A stretch of 64,000 bases of DNA, taken from Akkermansiaceae bacterium (GTDB lineage: Bacteria > Verrucomicrobiota > Verrucomicrobiia > Verrucomicrobiales > Akkermansiaceae). Positions 2,683 through 9,462 of this stretch are shown in pieces; within the stretch, counting starts at the first letter, position 1, and every line of letters starts with the position of its first letter. Both the position numbers and the translations under genes were made by a program. The notes beneath the pieces are model-generated. The model was not told the DNA's origin, did not search any database, and saw nothing but the letters and a program-made list of their open reading frames with translations. The stretch spans positions 1-64,000 of the forward strand of contig JAIPKB010000001.1 in the NCBI GenBank assembly GCA_021733795.1, written 5' to 3'.

Positions 2683-2884
2683 GTCCGCGCCGCTCCCGAG
2701 AGCCCCCATTCCGGTCATCCAGAGCCCGCCGATCCAAACGGTCGCCGCCGTCGGCGGGAATGGTAGGCATATCCTGCCACAGCAAATCCCAGTAATTGAA
2801 TAGCTTGAGCTAAAAGCTTCGCAAATATGCTGAACAGTTAATCAAATTCTTCTAAAATATTTTGATTTTCTTCTTGACGCGGAG

Positions 2885-3004: not shown

Positions 3005-6000
3005 ATGTCATTTCAACAAACCCTAAGGTGCCTCAGGCCCTTGCTTGCCCGCGTCCTGCTGATTGCGGGATTGTGTGTCGGCGGCTTGTTCTGGATCCAG
3101 TCAAATGCGGAACCAGAATTCAGTGCCGCTCTCGATGACGCCTCCCCGCCGACCGTCCAGCTCAGTTTTGAGGCGGGAGAAGACGGAAATTATTATCCAG
3201 AATACTTTGAACCCCCCATCAATGGGGGCCCCGGGCGATGGGTTCCCATCCCCAACGCCGAGCAATTTTTCCACGCAGGCAAACACGTGGTCTTTGTCGA
3301 GGTTCCGGGCGAACCCACCCCGAAGAGCCGCATCCTGCGCATGGTCGCGGCCGACCAGATCATCAGGCCCACTATCTTTCCGGCCTCGGTCACCGTATGT
3401 CGGGTGGAACCGACCAAGTGTCCGCGCAAGGCCACCATTTGTGTCGCTGACGTTGCCACCGTATGTCCCACCGTGGCATTAGCCACCAGTTGTCCGGTCC
3501 AACTCACCCGATGCACCCAGGTCCGCACCCAATGCCCCAGCCGTGCGACCTCCTGCCCGGTCCAGGCGACGACCTGTACGGCCAAACCCCTGCCGACGTT
3601 CTGCGGCGGCGTGGCGACCCAGTGCCCGAAACAAGCCACCCAGTGCGCGTCGGTGATCACGGTTTGCCCAAACCAGCCGACGGCCTGCCCGAAAAGCCGC
3701 ACCCAGTGCCCGACCGTGGCGACCCAATGCCCGGCCAACGTGGCGACCATCTGCCCGCAGCCGCCGCAACTCACCACCTGTCCTGCCAGCTCGACCGCCT
3801 GCCCGCAGATTCAAACCAGGTGCCCGATGCAGGTAACCGCCTGTGTCACCGAACTGACCACCTGTCCGCAAGGCGTCACCTATTGTCCGGAGCAGCCCAC
3901 CCGCTGCCCCACCAAGCTCACCGCCTGCCCGCAGCAGGCCACCCGCTGCCCGGCCGAGGTAACGACCTGCTCGACGAAGGCGACCGTCTGCACGGCGGCT
4001 CCGACCAGTTGCCCGACCGTGATCGACCCCACCCAATGCCCCAGGCTGCAAACCCAGTGCCCGCGTGCCCTGACCGTCTGCCCCAGTGACATCGGAGCGG
4101 CCACGATCTGTGCGGCCGATGTCGAGCCCACCAAGTGCTCGTCGCTTTACACGGCTTGTCCCACCACCGCGACCCTCTGCCCCAGGCAGCGGACCGAGTG
4201 CCCGGCACAGCCGACGCTCTGCCCGATGAACCAAACCAAGTGCCCGATCACGGCGACGGTTTGCCCGCAGGCGACAGCGGCCACAGAGTGCCCCAGAATC
4301 GACACGGTTTGTCCGCAAACCATGGCCACCGAATGCCCGATCATCCAGACCCGCTGCCCGCAAGCACCCACCCGCTGCCCGCTGGGACCTGACTGCCTGC
4401 AACCGACGACGACCCCCGGGATCCCCACGGAATGCTCGGGCCAAGCGACCGAATGCGTGCAGATTTCGACCATTTGCCCGAGACTGCCGTCCGAATGCGG
4501 CGGCGAAGTCACCGTGTGTCCCGCGTCAAGCACCACTTGTCCCAAGCAGGCCACCCGATGCCCGGTGGAACGCACCAATTGCCCGGCGGCCGCCACCAAT
4601 TGCCCGGCTCAGGCGACCGCCTGCCCGCAGGTGCGGACCCAATGCCCGCAGTTTGACACGATCTGTCCCACGGCCGACACGGTCACCATCTGCCCGCCTT
4701 CACTGACCGAGTGCCCCAGGCAGTCCACTCAGTGTCCGCTGGAGCCGACCATTTGTACCACGACGCTGACCACCTGCGCCGGCCAGCAGACGCTTTGTCC
4801 GGATCCCACCGGTGCCACCACCTGCCCGCAGGTGCGGACCGAGTGCCCCTCAAGACCCACCTTCTGCCCGCAGGCCGCCACCCGCTGCCCGGCTTACGAG
4901 ACCATCTGCCCGCAGAACGGCACCATCACCCAGTGCCCGGACAAGGCCACCGCCTGCCCGGCGGTCCCCACCCACTGTCCGCAAGCGGATACCCAGTGCC
5001 CTGAAAAACCGACGTTCTGCCCGGTCCGCTTGACCCAGTGCACCAACGAGCCGACCAACTGCCCGATCGACACCACCAAGTGTCCGCAAGGAGTTACCTA
5101 TTGCCCGGTTGCGGCCACCGCGTGTCCGAGGGTAGCCACCGAGTGTCCGCAGGATCAGTTGACCGCCTGCCCGGTGAAGGAAACCCAGTGCCCGAGCGAG
5201 CAAACCCGCTGCCCGGCCACTGCGACCCGCTGCCCGGCTGAGCCGACGATTTGTGCGCCGGATGCCGTGATGACCCAGTGCCCGGCGACCGACACCGAAT
5301 GCCCGCGGATCACCACCGTCTGCCCGCGGATCGCCACCGCCTGCCCGGTCGAGCAGACCTTCTGCCCGCAGGGTGAGACTTACTGTCCGACCAAACCGAC
5401 GGCCTGTCCGCGCGTTCCCACCGAGTGCCCGGCGGGTGCCACCCAGTGCCCGCGGCAGGCCACGGTCTGCCCCACTCAGCGGACGGCCTGTCCGTCCCTC
5501 CGCACCGAGTGCCCGGCTAGCCAGACCACCTGCCCGGTGATTCCCACCCAGTGCCCCAGCGGCGAGCCGACCATCTGCCCCATTGAGGACACCCAATGCC
5601 CGGTCCAGCAAACGCTTTGTCCGGTGACCACCGGGGCGGCCACCACTTGTCCCTACCTGCCCACCGTGTGTCCGTCCGCCGACGGCACCACCACCCAGTG
5701 TCCGCAGGAAACCACCGTCTGCCCGCAAGCCCAGACCCGGTGCCCGGTCAAACAGACCGAGTGCCCGCAACACGCGACCGGCTGCCCGGTGATTGCCACC
5801 ATCTGCCCATCGGACCCGGTGGATACCCAGTGCCCGATGAAGGAAACCGAATGCCCTGGTAACGGTGCCACCTTCTGTCCCTCAGTGCCCACCGAGTGCC
5901 CCGCCAGCCCCACCAAGTGCCCGGCGGAACCCACCCGCTGTCCGCTGGATCCCGCGCCCACCACCTGCCCGGTTGAACGGACCGTGTGCCCGGTCGGCAC

Positions 6001-7516
6001 CGCCACCGCCTGCCCGACCACGTTCACCGAGTGCCCAGTGACCAGCATGGTGACCCAGTGCCCGGTGGCGACGACCTCCTGCCCGGTGAGGCAAACCGCG
6101 TGCCCGAGAAGTGTCACGGAGTGCCCCGCCGCGGAAACCCAGTGCCCGGAAAGGGAAACGGTGTGCCCGGCGACCGTGACCACTTGCGTGAATGAACCCA
6201 CTCTGTGCCCCACCACCGCCGCTACCATGTGTCCGGTGACCGCCACCGCCTGCCCGCGGGAAATGACCGCCTGCCCGCGGATCACCACCGAGTGCCCGCA
6301 ATCGCCCACCATTTGCCCGCAGTTGACCACCCGCTGCCCGCAACAGGCGACCCAGTGCCCCCAGGCGCAGACCAACTGCCCCACCAAGCAGACCGCCTGC
6401 CCACAGCTGGAAACCGAATGCCCGGTCGCCCAAACCTCCTGCCCGAAGGTTGAGACCGAGTGCCCCCGCAGCCCAACGCAGTGCCCCCTCCTGATCACCG
6501 AGTGCGTTCAGTCAGCCACCCAGTGCGCTACGCAACCCACCCAGTGTGCCACCGGTGCGGTGACCTACTGCCCTGAGGAACCCACCCGGTGCCCGGCGTC
6601 GGCCACCAAGTGTCCGGCCACGGCCACCCAATGTCCCATCGAGCAAACCACCTGTCCGGCGGTCCAGACGGTCTGCCCGGCCAAGGCCACCGAGTGCCCG
6701 GCCGAACCCACCCGTTGCCCGGCCAAGCAAACCGAGTGTCCGGCGGTCCAAACCGAATGCCCGGTTGTCCAAACCGAGTGCCCGGCCCGGGTGACCACCT
6801 GCGTCGGCAGTCCCACCGAGTGTCCGCAGGCGGATACCCAATGCCCGGCTGTGGCCACCGTCTGCCCGACTGTGGCTACCGAATGCCCGGTGGGGACCAC
6901 CGAGTGCCCGGACCCCACCGGCACTTGCGGTCCGACGTTCTTCCCGCGACACGCCACCGAGTGCCCGCCTGACGTGCCCACCCAGTGCCCGGTCAACATC
7001 ACCACCTGCCCGGTCAAGGACACGGAATGTCCGGTGGATGTGGTGAATGTCACTAGTTGCCCGCGCATTGCCACCCAATGCACCGGCACCGCAGCCACCG
7101 AGTGCTCCACCAATTCCACCCAATGCCCAAGTGCCGATCATCCGACGGAATGCCCGAGCGGAGCGGGAGACACCACCACCTGTCCGATCGCGCCGACCCA
7201 GTGCCCGCGGCAGACCACCCACTGCCCGGCGGTGGCGACCGAGTGCCCGCAGATCGTGACCGAGTGCCCGTTTGACCCGACCGTTTGTGGCGAGCCGACG
7301 ATTCTGCCGCAAATTCCAACTGAGTGTCCGCGGATCACCACGGAATGCCCGGTGGGGACCACCGAGTGTCCGGATCCTACCGGTACTTGCGGACCGACCA
7401 TTTTCCCGGACAAGCCCACCGAGTGTCCGCAGCAGGTGACCGTTTGCCCGCGCGTTCAGACCGAATGCCCGACATTCTCGACCGAGTGTCCGGACGCCAC
7501 CGGTGCCTGCCTGTAA
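3005..7516 (+). CDS. Giant secreted Cys-Pro heptad repeat protein (consensus T-x-C-P-x-x-x)
   Basis: N-terminal signal/TM segment (LLARVLLIAGLCVGGLFWIQSNA); about 1370 residues of near-continuous heptads with Cys every 7 residues. Confidence 0.9.
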   Translation: MSFQQTLRCLRPLLARVLLIAGLCVGGLFWIQSNAEPEFSAALDDASPPTVQLSFEAGEDGNYYPEYFEPPINGGPGRWVPIPNAEQFFHAGKHVVFVEVPGEPTPKSRILRMVAADQIIRPTIFPASVTVCRVEPTKCPRKATICVADVATVCPTVALATSCPVQLTRCTQVRTQCPSRATSCPVQATTCTAKPLPTFCGGVATQCPKQATQCASVITVCPNQPTACPKSRTQCPTVATQCPANVATICPQPPQLTTCPASSTACPQIQTRCPMQVTACVTELTTCPQGVTYCPEQPTRCPTKLTACPQQATRCPAEVTTCSTKATVCTAAPTSCPTVIDPTQCPRLQTQCPRALTVCPSDIGAATICAADVEPTKCSSLYTACPTTATLCPRQRTECPAQPTLCPMNQTKCPITATVCPQATAATECPRIDTVCPQTMATECPIIQTRCPQAPTRCPLGPDCLQPTTTPGIPTECSGQATECVQISTICPRLPSECGGEVTVCPASSTTCPKQATRCPVERTNCPAAATNCPAQATACPQVRTQCPQFDTICPTADTVTICPPSLTECPRQSTQCPLEPTICTTTLTTCAGQQTLCPDPTGATTCPQVRTECPSRPTFCPQAATRCPAYETICPQNGTITQCPDKATACPAVPTHCPQADTQCPEKPTFCPVRLTQCTNEPTNCPIDTTKCPQGVTYCPVAATACPRVATECPQDQLTACPVKETQCPSEQTRCPATATRCPAEPTICAPDAVMTQCPATDTECPRITTVCPRIATACPVEQTFCPQGETYCPTKPTACPRVPTECPAGATQCPRQATVCPTQRTACPSLRTECPASQTTCPVIPTQCPSGEPTICPIEDTQCPVQQTLCPVTTGAATTCPYLPTVCPSADGTTTQCPQETTVCPQAQTRCPVKQTECPQHATGCPVIATICPSDPVDTQCPMKETECPGNGATFCPSVPTECPASPTKCPAEPTRCPLDPAPTTCPVERTVCPVGTATACPTTFTECPVTSMVTQCPVATTSCPVRQTACPRSVTECPAAETQCPERETVCPATVTTCVNEPTLCPTTAATMCPVTATACPREMTACPRITTECPQSPTICPQLTTRCPQQATQCPQAQTNCPTKQTACPQLETECPVAQTSCPKVETECPRSPTQCPLLITECVQSATQCATQPTQCATGAVTYCPEEPTRCPASATKCPATATQCPIEQTTCPAVQTVCPAKATECPAEPTRCPAKQTECPAVQTECPVVQTECPARVTTCVGSPTECPQADTQCPAVATVCPTVATECPVGTTECPDPTGTCGPTFFPRHATECPPDVPTQCPVNITTCPVKDTECPVDVVNVTSCPRIATQCTGTAATECSTNSTQCPSADHPTECPSGAGDTTTCPIAPTQCPRQTTHCPAVATECPQIVTECPFDPTVCGEPTILPQIPTECPRITTECPVGTTECPDPTGTCGPTIFPDKPTECPQQVTVCPRVQTECPTFSTECPDATGACL

Positions 7517-7537
7517 ATCCCCACTGACCCCAACCCC

Positions 7538-7590
7538 GTGCGGTCAAGACGGACGTGACTTCGGTCACCACGTCTTGGCCGCACGTTTTT
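7538..7590 (+). terminator. Strong intrinsic terminator downstream of the Cys-heptad gene
   Basis: GTGCGGTCAAGACG / CGTCTTGGCCGCAC 14-bp stem (one G-T wobble) with inner GTGACTTCGGTCAC hairpin, then GTTTTT. Confidence 0.85.
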
Positions 7591-7693
7591 GTGGTTGAAA
7601 GAAACGCCGCTACCAGGGCGTTTCCAGACCCGGCAGCAGCCTGCGCTCCGCCCGCCCGCGGGTGGCTGGTCGATCAGGAGCCCTCTCCATCCG

Positions 7694-9154
7694 ATGAACG
7701 ACTTACCCCAACCCCCGATGATTTCCCGGCGACGCCTGTTGAAGCTGTGCGGGATGGCCGCATTGGCAACCCAAGGATCCACCCGAGCCGGCGGCAGCGC
7801 CAACAATACCGTCAGGGTCGGCGTCATCGGCTGCGGTGGCCGGGCGCAGGGGTTAGCCGCCCAATTCGCAAGAATCAAGGACGTGTCCATCGTCGCCCTC
7901 TGCGATGCCGACTCCGCCCGCATCGATTCCACCGCGAAGCGGCTTGCAACCCGGATCGCCGACCCGGGCGGGCTGGCAAAATTCCAGGACTACCGCCATT
8001 TGTTGGACCGCAAGGACATCGATGCCGTGGTGATCGCCAGCCCCAACCACTGGCACACCCTGCATGCGATCCACGCGATGCAGGCCGGTAAGGATGTCTA
8101 TCTGGAAAAACCGGTGAGTCACGAGTTGTTTGAGGGCCGCCAGTTGGTCGCTGCCGAGCAGAAATACGGACGGATGATCGCCGCCGGCTTCCAAAGCCGT
8201 TCCTGCCCCGGGCCGCGCGACGGGTTTCAGTTCGTGCGCGAGGGAAAGCTGGGGAAAATCCTCAGGGTTCACATCTGCTGCTTCAAAGACCGCACCGGAA
8301 TCGGCAAGCGGCCGGATCCCCTCACCCCGCCGGCCAGCGTCGATTACAACCTGTGGCTCGGACCCGCCGCCGACCTCCCGCTCTACCGCAACCAGTTCCA
8401 CTACGACTGGCATTGGGCCTGGAACACCGGCAACGGCGAAATCGGCAACCAGGCACCCCATGAGATCGATCTCGCCAACTGGTTGTTAGGTGACGCTGGC
8501 CTGCCAACGGAAATCCGCAGCATCGGCGGACGCTTCGGCTGGAACGACGCCGGCGAAACGCCCAATATGCAACTCGCCTGGTATCAGCTCGCCGGGGTGC
8601 CCGTCACCATCGAGGTGGATGATCTCCAATTGACCCCGACCCGCAAGGTGACCGGAGTCCGCGACGGAATCCGCGTCGGACTGGTGGTGCATTGCGAGGG
8701 TGGACAACTCCGCGGCGGCCTCGGCGGGATGTATGCCGTGGGCGTGGATGGCAAAATGCCGATCCAGAAATTTCCGGGCGATGGTGGAGCCCGGCATCAG
8801 GCGAATTTCATCGACGCCGTGCGCTCACGCCGCAGTGATGATATCGCATCGCGGATCGTGCTCGCCGAGCGCGCCGCCGCGATCGCCCATCTCGCCAATC
8901 TTTCCTATCGGGCCGGAAGCCCGGCCGGGGCCGCTGCGCTCGAGTCATGCATCGGCGGCAACCCCGCTGTGGCAAGCCTGCTGGCCGACCACACCAAACA
9001 CCTGGCCGATTGGGGCATCACCCAGCCCGCCTATACCGTGGGCAAGCCCATCAGCATGGATCCGGCCACCACCAGAGTGCTCACTCCGGGGCTCGACGAA
9101 GCGCTCGTCCACCGCCCCTGCCGTCCCGAGTTCACGGTGCCCGACCTGGGTTGA
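7694..9154 (+). CDS. Gfo/Idh/MocA family oxidoreductase with Tat-type signal
   Basis: SRRRLLK twin-arginine motif; VRVGVIGCGGRAQG Rossmann motif; DVYLEKPVSHE. Confidence 0.88.
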   Translation: MNDLPQPPMISRRRLLKLCGMAALATQGSTRAGGSANNTVRVGVIGCGGRAQGLAAQFARIKDVSIVALCDADSARIDSTAKRLATRIADPGGLAKFQDYRHLLDRKDIDAVVIASPNHWHTLHAIHAMQAGKDVYLEKPVSHELFEGRQLVAAEQKYGRMIAAGFQSRSCPGPRDGFQFVREGKLGKILRVHICCFKDRTGIGKRPDPLTPPASVDYNLWLGPAADLPLYRNQFHYDWHWAWNTGNGEIGNQAPHEIDLANWLLGDAGLPTEIRSIGGRFGWNDAGETPNMQLAWYQLAGVPVTIEVDDLQLTPTRKVTGVRDGIRVGLVVHCEGGQLRGGLGGMYAVGVDGKMPIQKFPGDGGARHQANFIDAVRSRRSDDIASRIVLAERAAAIAHLANLSYRAGSPAGAAALESCIGGNPAVASLLADHTKHLADWGITQPAYTVGKPISMDPATTRVLTPGLDEALVHRPCRPEFTVPDLG

Positions 9155-9164
9155 CCGCTCCGGG

Positions 9165-9462
9165 GCGCGTTCATTCTGAACGCTGAGTCAGGCGGACATG
9201 CTGTCCGCTGCGGTGGCGGTGAGTCCGCCGCGCGTCCGCCGCGCCCGACAGCATGTCGGTCCCACATAGCCGACAGGATGTCGGCGCCCCGCGCGTTCAT
9301 TCTGAACGCTGAGTCAGGCGGACATGCTGTCCGCTGCGGTGGCGGTGAGTCCACCGCGCGTCCGCCGCGCCCGACAGCATGTCGGTCCCACATAGCCGAC
9401 AGGATGTCGGCGCCCCGCGCGTTCATTCTGAACGCTGAGTCAGGCGGACATGCTGTCCGCCG
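9165..9462. repeat. 126-bp tandem repeat, two full copies plus partial third, built from short palindromes
   Basis: GCGCGTTCATTCTGAACGC at 9165, 9291 and 9417 (period 126); each unit contains GCGTTCA-TTC-TGAACGC, GCGGACA-TGC-TGTCCGC, CCGACA-GCA-TGTCGG, CCGACA-GGA-TGTCGG. Confidence 0.92.

Follow-up and report, generated by a model that had tools for sequence, protein, structure and literature searches.

Chlamydial OmcA and OmcB, which come from another PVC phylum, are Cys-rich envelope proteins that are cross-linked by disulfides. Keratin-associated proteins are Cys-, Pro- and Thr-rich cross-linkers, and the protein described here resembles them. The walls of planctomycetes have long been described as protein-rich (PMC4334474, PMC8567305). 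YTV proteins (PF07639) were found in wall preparations of Planctomycetia, and their high cysteine content was suggested to regulate wall rigidity (PMC8567305, PMC10632474). In animals, the CREMP proteins of the avian and reptilian eggshell membrane carry tandem Cys modules and form a disulfide-rich extracellular fabric (PMC3068167), while cnidarian minicollagens polymerize via disulfide reshuffling of their Cys-rich domains (PMC4863159). Here, we describe a gene for a long protein built from TxCPxxx heptads, located in a 64,000-nucleotide stretch of DNA from an Akkermansiaceae bacterium (contig JAIPKB010000001.1, positions 1 to 64,000; hereafter, "the window").

A near-continuous array of Cys-Pro heptads

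The heptad gene and its associated features are listed in Table 1. Of the 188 Cys residues of the encoded protein, 186 are in residues 132 to 1502, and two are in the signal segment. Neighboring array Cys are exactly 7 residues apart in 150 of 185 intervals, and 8, 9 and 10 residues apart in 11, 14 and 5 intervals, respectively; the remaining spacings range from 6 to 15 (mode, 7; minimum, 6). Thr is found at position −2 of 181 of the 186 array Cys and Pro at position +1 of 156. These counts bear out an earlier note on this DNA, which had described about 1,370 residues of near-continuous heptads with one Cys each. The insertions of 1 to 3 residues that it reported are present, but others reach 8 residues (a spacing of 15). 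It described Cys, and usually Pro and Thr, as invariant; Pro follows only ~84% of the array Cys.

Table 1. Coordinates of the heptad gene and associated features in the window
Feature	Position	Strand	Description
T-tract and TTG(A/C)C box, possible −35 element	2866..2878	+	TTTTCTTCTTGAC
Cys-Pro heptad protein gene	3005..7516	+	ATG start, 1503 aa, stop codon included
Signal segment, residues 1-35, probable signal peptidase I site SNA|EP	3005..3109	+	read from sequence
N-terminal beta domain, residues 41-120	3125..3364	+	aligned in 8 proteins
PTIFP array start motif, residues 122-126	3368..3382	+	invariant in 8 proteins
Array of 186 TxCPxxx units	3392..7513	+	residues 130-1503
Internal punctuation PTFFP, residue 1310	6932..6946	+	after CPDPTGTC
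Internal punctuation PTIFP, residue 1464	7394..7408	+	after CPDPTGTC
C-terminal cap CPDATGAC, residues 1495-1502	7487..7510	+	CPxDAxGxC-type motif
Intrinsic terminator, 15-bp stem then T5	7537..7590	+	RNA fold and terminator scan

When five consecutive TxCPxxx units are written as a DNA pattern, the window contains 42 matches, all on the plus strand and inside the heptad gene, and 100 dinucleotide shuffles contain none. All 185 full array units differ at the DNA level (they encode 182 distinct peptide heptads), and, therefore, the regularity of the heptad does not come from recent tandem copying. After residue 40, the protein consists of 18% Thr, 16% Pro and 13% Cys (12.7%), and is almost devoid of aromatic residues. 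This composition argues against a globular core. His is scarce, and the variable positions of the heptad (A, Q, V, R, T, E) have no clear hydrophobic pattern.

In agreement with the earlier note, which had recognized no family, the array has no match in Pfam, NCBIfam or the PDB sequences, and no description of a TxCPxxx repeat was found in the literature. Three known architectures do not fit the array: the coiled-coil heptad, because Pro follows Cys in most units and the variable positions are not clearly hydrophobic as a/d positions would be; the CREMP-type module, because the predominant spacing of 7 is not C-X4-C-X5-C-X8-C-X6; and metallothionein, because there are no CxC, CxxC or CC clusters. 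With a smallest array spacing of 6, a metallothionein-like cluster, one form of the metal array previously suggested for this protein, is unlikely. A weak MSG match in L070, one of the array proteins from other genomes (1.4e−05, with no stretch passing alone), was read as composition.

Relatives within the genus and selection on Cys, Thr and Pro

Counting the genome from which the window comes, 5 of approximately 60 genomes of the genus carry heptad genes. The four other genomes hold seven long relatives (1,388 to 1,794 amino acids from an MSF start): one in G018, two in tandem in each of G035 and G054, and two in G057. The signal segment, the N-terminal domain and the array are kept in all eight proteins. 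In comparison with the G018 relative, Cys is retained at 184 of 186 positions, Thr at 178 of 180 and Pro at 153 of 155, versus 42% at other positions; the alignment is anchored on Cys, which inflates these figures somewhat. No residue is more strongly conserved than Cys, with Thr almost equal. Cys codons carry 64 synonymous changes and 1 nonsynonymous change, and Thr codons carry 77 and 2, whereas the other positions carry 157 and 472. The synonymous excess at Cys codons is hard to explain other than by selection, in line with the proposal of the earlier note that selection acts on the Cys spacing. Because nearly all between-species variation at Cys, Thr and Pro codons is synonymous, while other positions drift, we regard the gene product as a real, selected protein.

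The longer-spacing sites are also retained in G018 (23 of 32, against a background rate of 0.15). Across relatives and paralogues, the array varies in length and in its number of Cys (163 to 207), which is odd in 5 of 9 proteins.

N-terminal region, export and flanking elements

The signal segment was called by eye from the charged N-terminus, the hydrophobic stretch and the A at the cleavage site. The seven relatives have the same layout, which, again as read by eye, agrees with the signal segment that had been placed ahead of the array before. AlphaFold2 predicts beta strands in the N-terminal domain (mean pLDDT of 62 to 82 per ten-residue block, residues 51 to 120). A PDB fold search with this model returned no significant match (best E of 0.25), and no profile similarity was found to the N-terminal domains of array proteins L053, L070, L092 and L135. 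No sorting motif was recognized at the C-terminus of the window's protein.

Upstream of the gene, the T-tract and a CTTG are conserved in an alignment of eight genes from five genomes, and may represent a promoter element. Downstream, the RNA fold of positions 7517 to 7600 has an energy of −42.5 kcal/mol (z of −6.0). An inverted repeat (CAGCCGGTGG...CCACCGGCTGA and near variants) is conserved 3′ of four heptad genes (L171, L174, L175), and is likely a terminator that these genes share. No conserved neighbor genes were found around the heptad genes: the comparison yielded just two weak Gfo/Idh/MocA-like matches in other genomes, and one match farther along the window's own contig. Given the strong terminator, the upstream box and the lack of conserved neighbors, the heptad gene appears to be monocistronic.

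Two other observations concern the surroundings of heptad genes. On the minus strand of the window (9031 to 9426), a repeat of ~42 codons (MNARGADILSAMWDRHAVGRGGRA.DSPPPQRTACPPDSAFR) is present in two near-identical copies beside a Gfo/Idh/MocA gene. A neighbor of a G057 heptad gene (L175:6651-10142) matches the hydrazine synthase alpha middle domain (PF18582, 6.5e−20) as well as PD40.

Distribution across phyla, domain contexts and shared motifs

A scan of genome contigs derived from the full protein detected no relative, but the degenerate five-unit DNA pattern recovered them, with at least 119 stretches in total. No fewer than a few dozen metagenome-assembled genomes (MAGs) carry the TxCPxxx unit. 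Among the matches listed, long arrays are found in Verrucomicrobiota, Kiritimatiellae, Lentisphaerae/Victivallales, Phycisphaerae, Sedimentisphaerales, other Planctomycetota and one Deltaproteobacteria MAG, and no cultured organism was recognized among their carriers. Taxon labels are MAG titles, and some MAGs may be misbinned; L136, titled Alphaproteobacteria, may be such a case, because its ORF length and layout equal those of L085 (Phycisphaerales). Other taxa contribute many single matches that are short and probably arose by chance. Nine stretches in viral contigs were also read as chance, since the surrounding ORFs are only 38 to 107 amino acids long. The distribution is patchy: 2 of 390 genomes in a draw of the window's phylum and 3 of 395 in a phylum draw around G485 are carriers.

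In L051 and L138, the array is on its own behind a signal peptide, whereas it follows DUF7901 and GEVED domains in L104 and GEVED alone in L095. The TxCPxxx repeat is a multi-phylum module that occurs with or without other extracellular-type domains. In a Planctomycetota MAG (L149:1-2628), a Cys-Pro array is followed by a PstS-like phosphate-binding domain.

Across 62 array proteins, PTxFPxxxTxC occurs 46 times in 14 proteins (shuffled mean of 0.02), and a CPxDAxGxC-type motif occurs 12 times in 10 proteins (0.16 in shuffles). The PTxFP and CPxDAxGC motifs occur in more than one phylum and link some of the arrays to each other. Several Phycisphaerae and Sedimentisphaerales arrays close with CPxxEVxCPT-like tails. 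A similar tail, such as CPAIEVKCPTI or CPVVEAKCPTVAEYV, is seen in L057, L076, L083, L084, L140, L144, L159, L162 and L163 (Phycisphaerae, Sedimentisphaerales and other Planctomycetota).

Possible roles of the heptad protein

We propose, giving it an even chance, that the heptad protein is a single-gene exported structural polymer, whose non-globular chain is cross-linked into a surface fabric. After export, the chain would be extended rather than globular, and its regularly spaced thiols would join neighboring chains, mainly through inter-chain disulfides formed by ambient oxidation or by reshuffling. The product would be a tough coat that lies on the cell or surrounds it, and the small beta domain could anchor or nucleate the polymer. 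Arrays differ freely in length and Cys number, which would be expected if the protein is a polymer and not an enzyme.

The weak point of the cross-linked fabric is its oxidation route. DsbB was found in none of 26 carrier genomes, in a search whose control was positive in 6 of 14 well-known genomes. VKOR is present in 6 of 19 carriers, is not enriched as a co-occurring gene, and was not found in the window's genome or in G035. Thioredoxin_4 is present in 8 of 26 carriers and was not found in the window's genome, which is only 86% complete; other oxidants may also act. The missing Dsb and VKOR oxidases, along with the odd Cys numbers, weaken the earlier suggestion that the array is disulfide-locked. 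With these oxidases missing, the thiols may be oxidized by ambient conditions or by other oxidants, or the array may stay reduced and bind metal or heme. How a cell deals with exported thiols when its genome yields no DsbB or VKOR is a puzzle.

A reduced thiol array, whose Cys remain as free thiols or coordinate metal, heme or sulfur and which would serve as a dense ligand store or a redox polymer, is unlikely. It would account for the missing disulfide oxidases in most carriers, and the prevalent Cys-Pro dipeptide is similar to the CP motif of heme regulation. However, the window's array has few His and neither clustered Cys nor any spacing below 6, conserved neighbor genes of any kind were not found, and exported thiols tend toward oxidation in air. 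With similarly low probability, periodic thiol polymers, with a Cys-Pro at every seventh residue, may be a widespread unnamed bacterial class that does without Dsb/VKOR closure, either as a regular ligand, heme or redox array or as a fabric formed via another oxidation route.

In a reading along the lines of the earlier note, the chain would form a compact solenoid or a helical rod held by a ladder of intrachain disulfides. This would fit the fixed spacing and the conserved longer-spacing positions, but we consider it improbable. AlphaFold2, the check which that note had suggested, yielded no secondary structure for 16 heptads with 70 aligned rows (pLDDT of 52, pTM of 0.13), and likewise no confident structure for the array when the N-terminal domain was included; as to a rod or solenoid, these array models are uninformative. 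The variable positions lack a clear hydrophobic pattern, and, given the odd Cys numbers, the chain need not form a closed ladder within itself. A quasi-period of 2.67 to 2.86 heptads in several groups other than the window's speaks for a higher-order structure of this kind. After a block-duplication filter, it persists in weaker form in three of five groups and is gone in the GEVED group; the group of the window's protein did not show it with or without the filter, and we treat it as a lead only. A beta-solenoid of the left-handed beta-helix or antifreeze type would have strands and coils of 12 to 20 residues, and a possible quasi-period of 18.7 to 19.3 residues is seen in relatives only. At the level of individual proteins, a variable-position quasi-period of ~2.7 heptads (lags 3, 5 or 6, 8 and 11) is seen in L067, L070, L096, L101, L117, L135 and L138.

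The near-equal conservation of Thr, the Pro-rich chain and the position of Phycisphaerae arrays after GEVED and DUF7901 domains would suit a mucin-like linker with O-glycosylated Thr, in which Cys forms only occasional links and the role is adhesion or hydration. We find such a linker distinctly improbable, because a spacer has no need for Cys to be the most conserved residue and many proteins are array-only (such as L051 and L138). Finally, an artefact, in which assembly noise or a chance open frame in a GC-rich repeat would mimic a gene, is highly implausible: other reading frames across the gene are also open over long stretches, but Cys, Thr and Pro codons change almost only synonymously in the frame of the gene, and long relatives exist in four other genomes.

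Comparison with known Cys-rich systems

A cross-linked surface fabric would place the heptad protein beside several described systems. YTV proteins are a candidate for protein-rich walls in Planctomycetia only. Like them, the window's protein is Cys-rich, repetitive, exported as judged by sequence inspection, and from the same superphylum. In contrast, the YTV repeat is longer and unlike the heptad, and hmmscan against Pfam-A detected no PF07639 in the window's protein and seven other array proteins. YTV is found in none of 26 heptad carriers but in 11 of 40 genomes sampled in the Planctomycetota draw; phylogeny confounds this contrast. The Cys/Pro/Thr module scattered among Verrucomicrobiota, Kiritimatiellae, Lentisphaerae and Phycisphaerae may be a second, testable candidate for protein exoskeletons in the superphylum.

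CREMP shares with the heptad protein long tandem Cys modules of fixed spacing, but it is an animal protein with a different spacing and strongly conserved inter-Cys residues. Minicollagens and keratin-associated proteins are also animal proteins, with other spacings and no shared sequence family. OmcA and OmcB have no seven-residue repeat. The heptad array is a very regular natural cysteine polymer and, as such, of biomaterials interest. By analogy, we suggest that the heptad protein most likely works like YTV, CREMP or keratin-associated proteins without being a member of any of these families. Precedents for the unnamed TxCPxxx module are the Cys-rich wall proteins of a related phylum (YTV) and the fabrics made of repeated Cys modules (CREMP, minicollagen).
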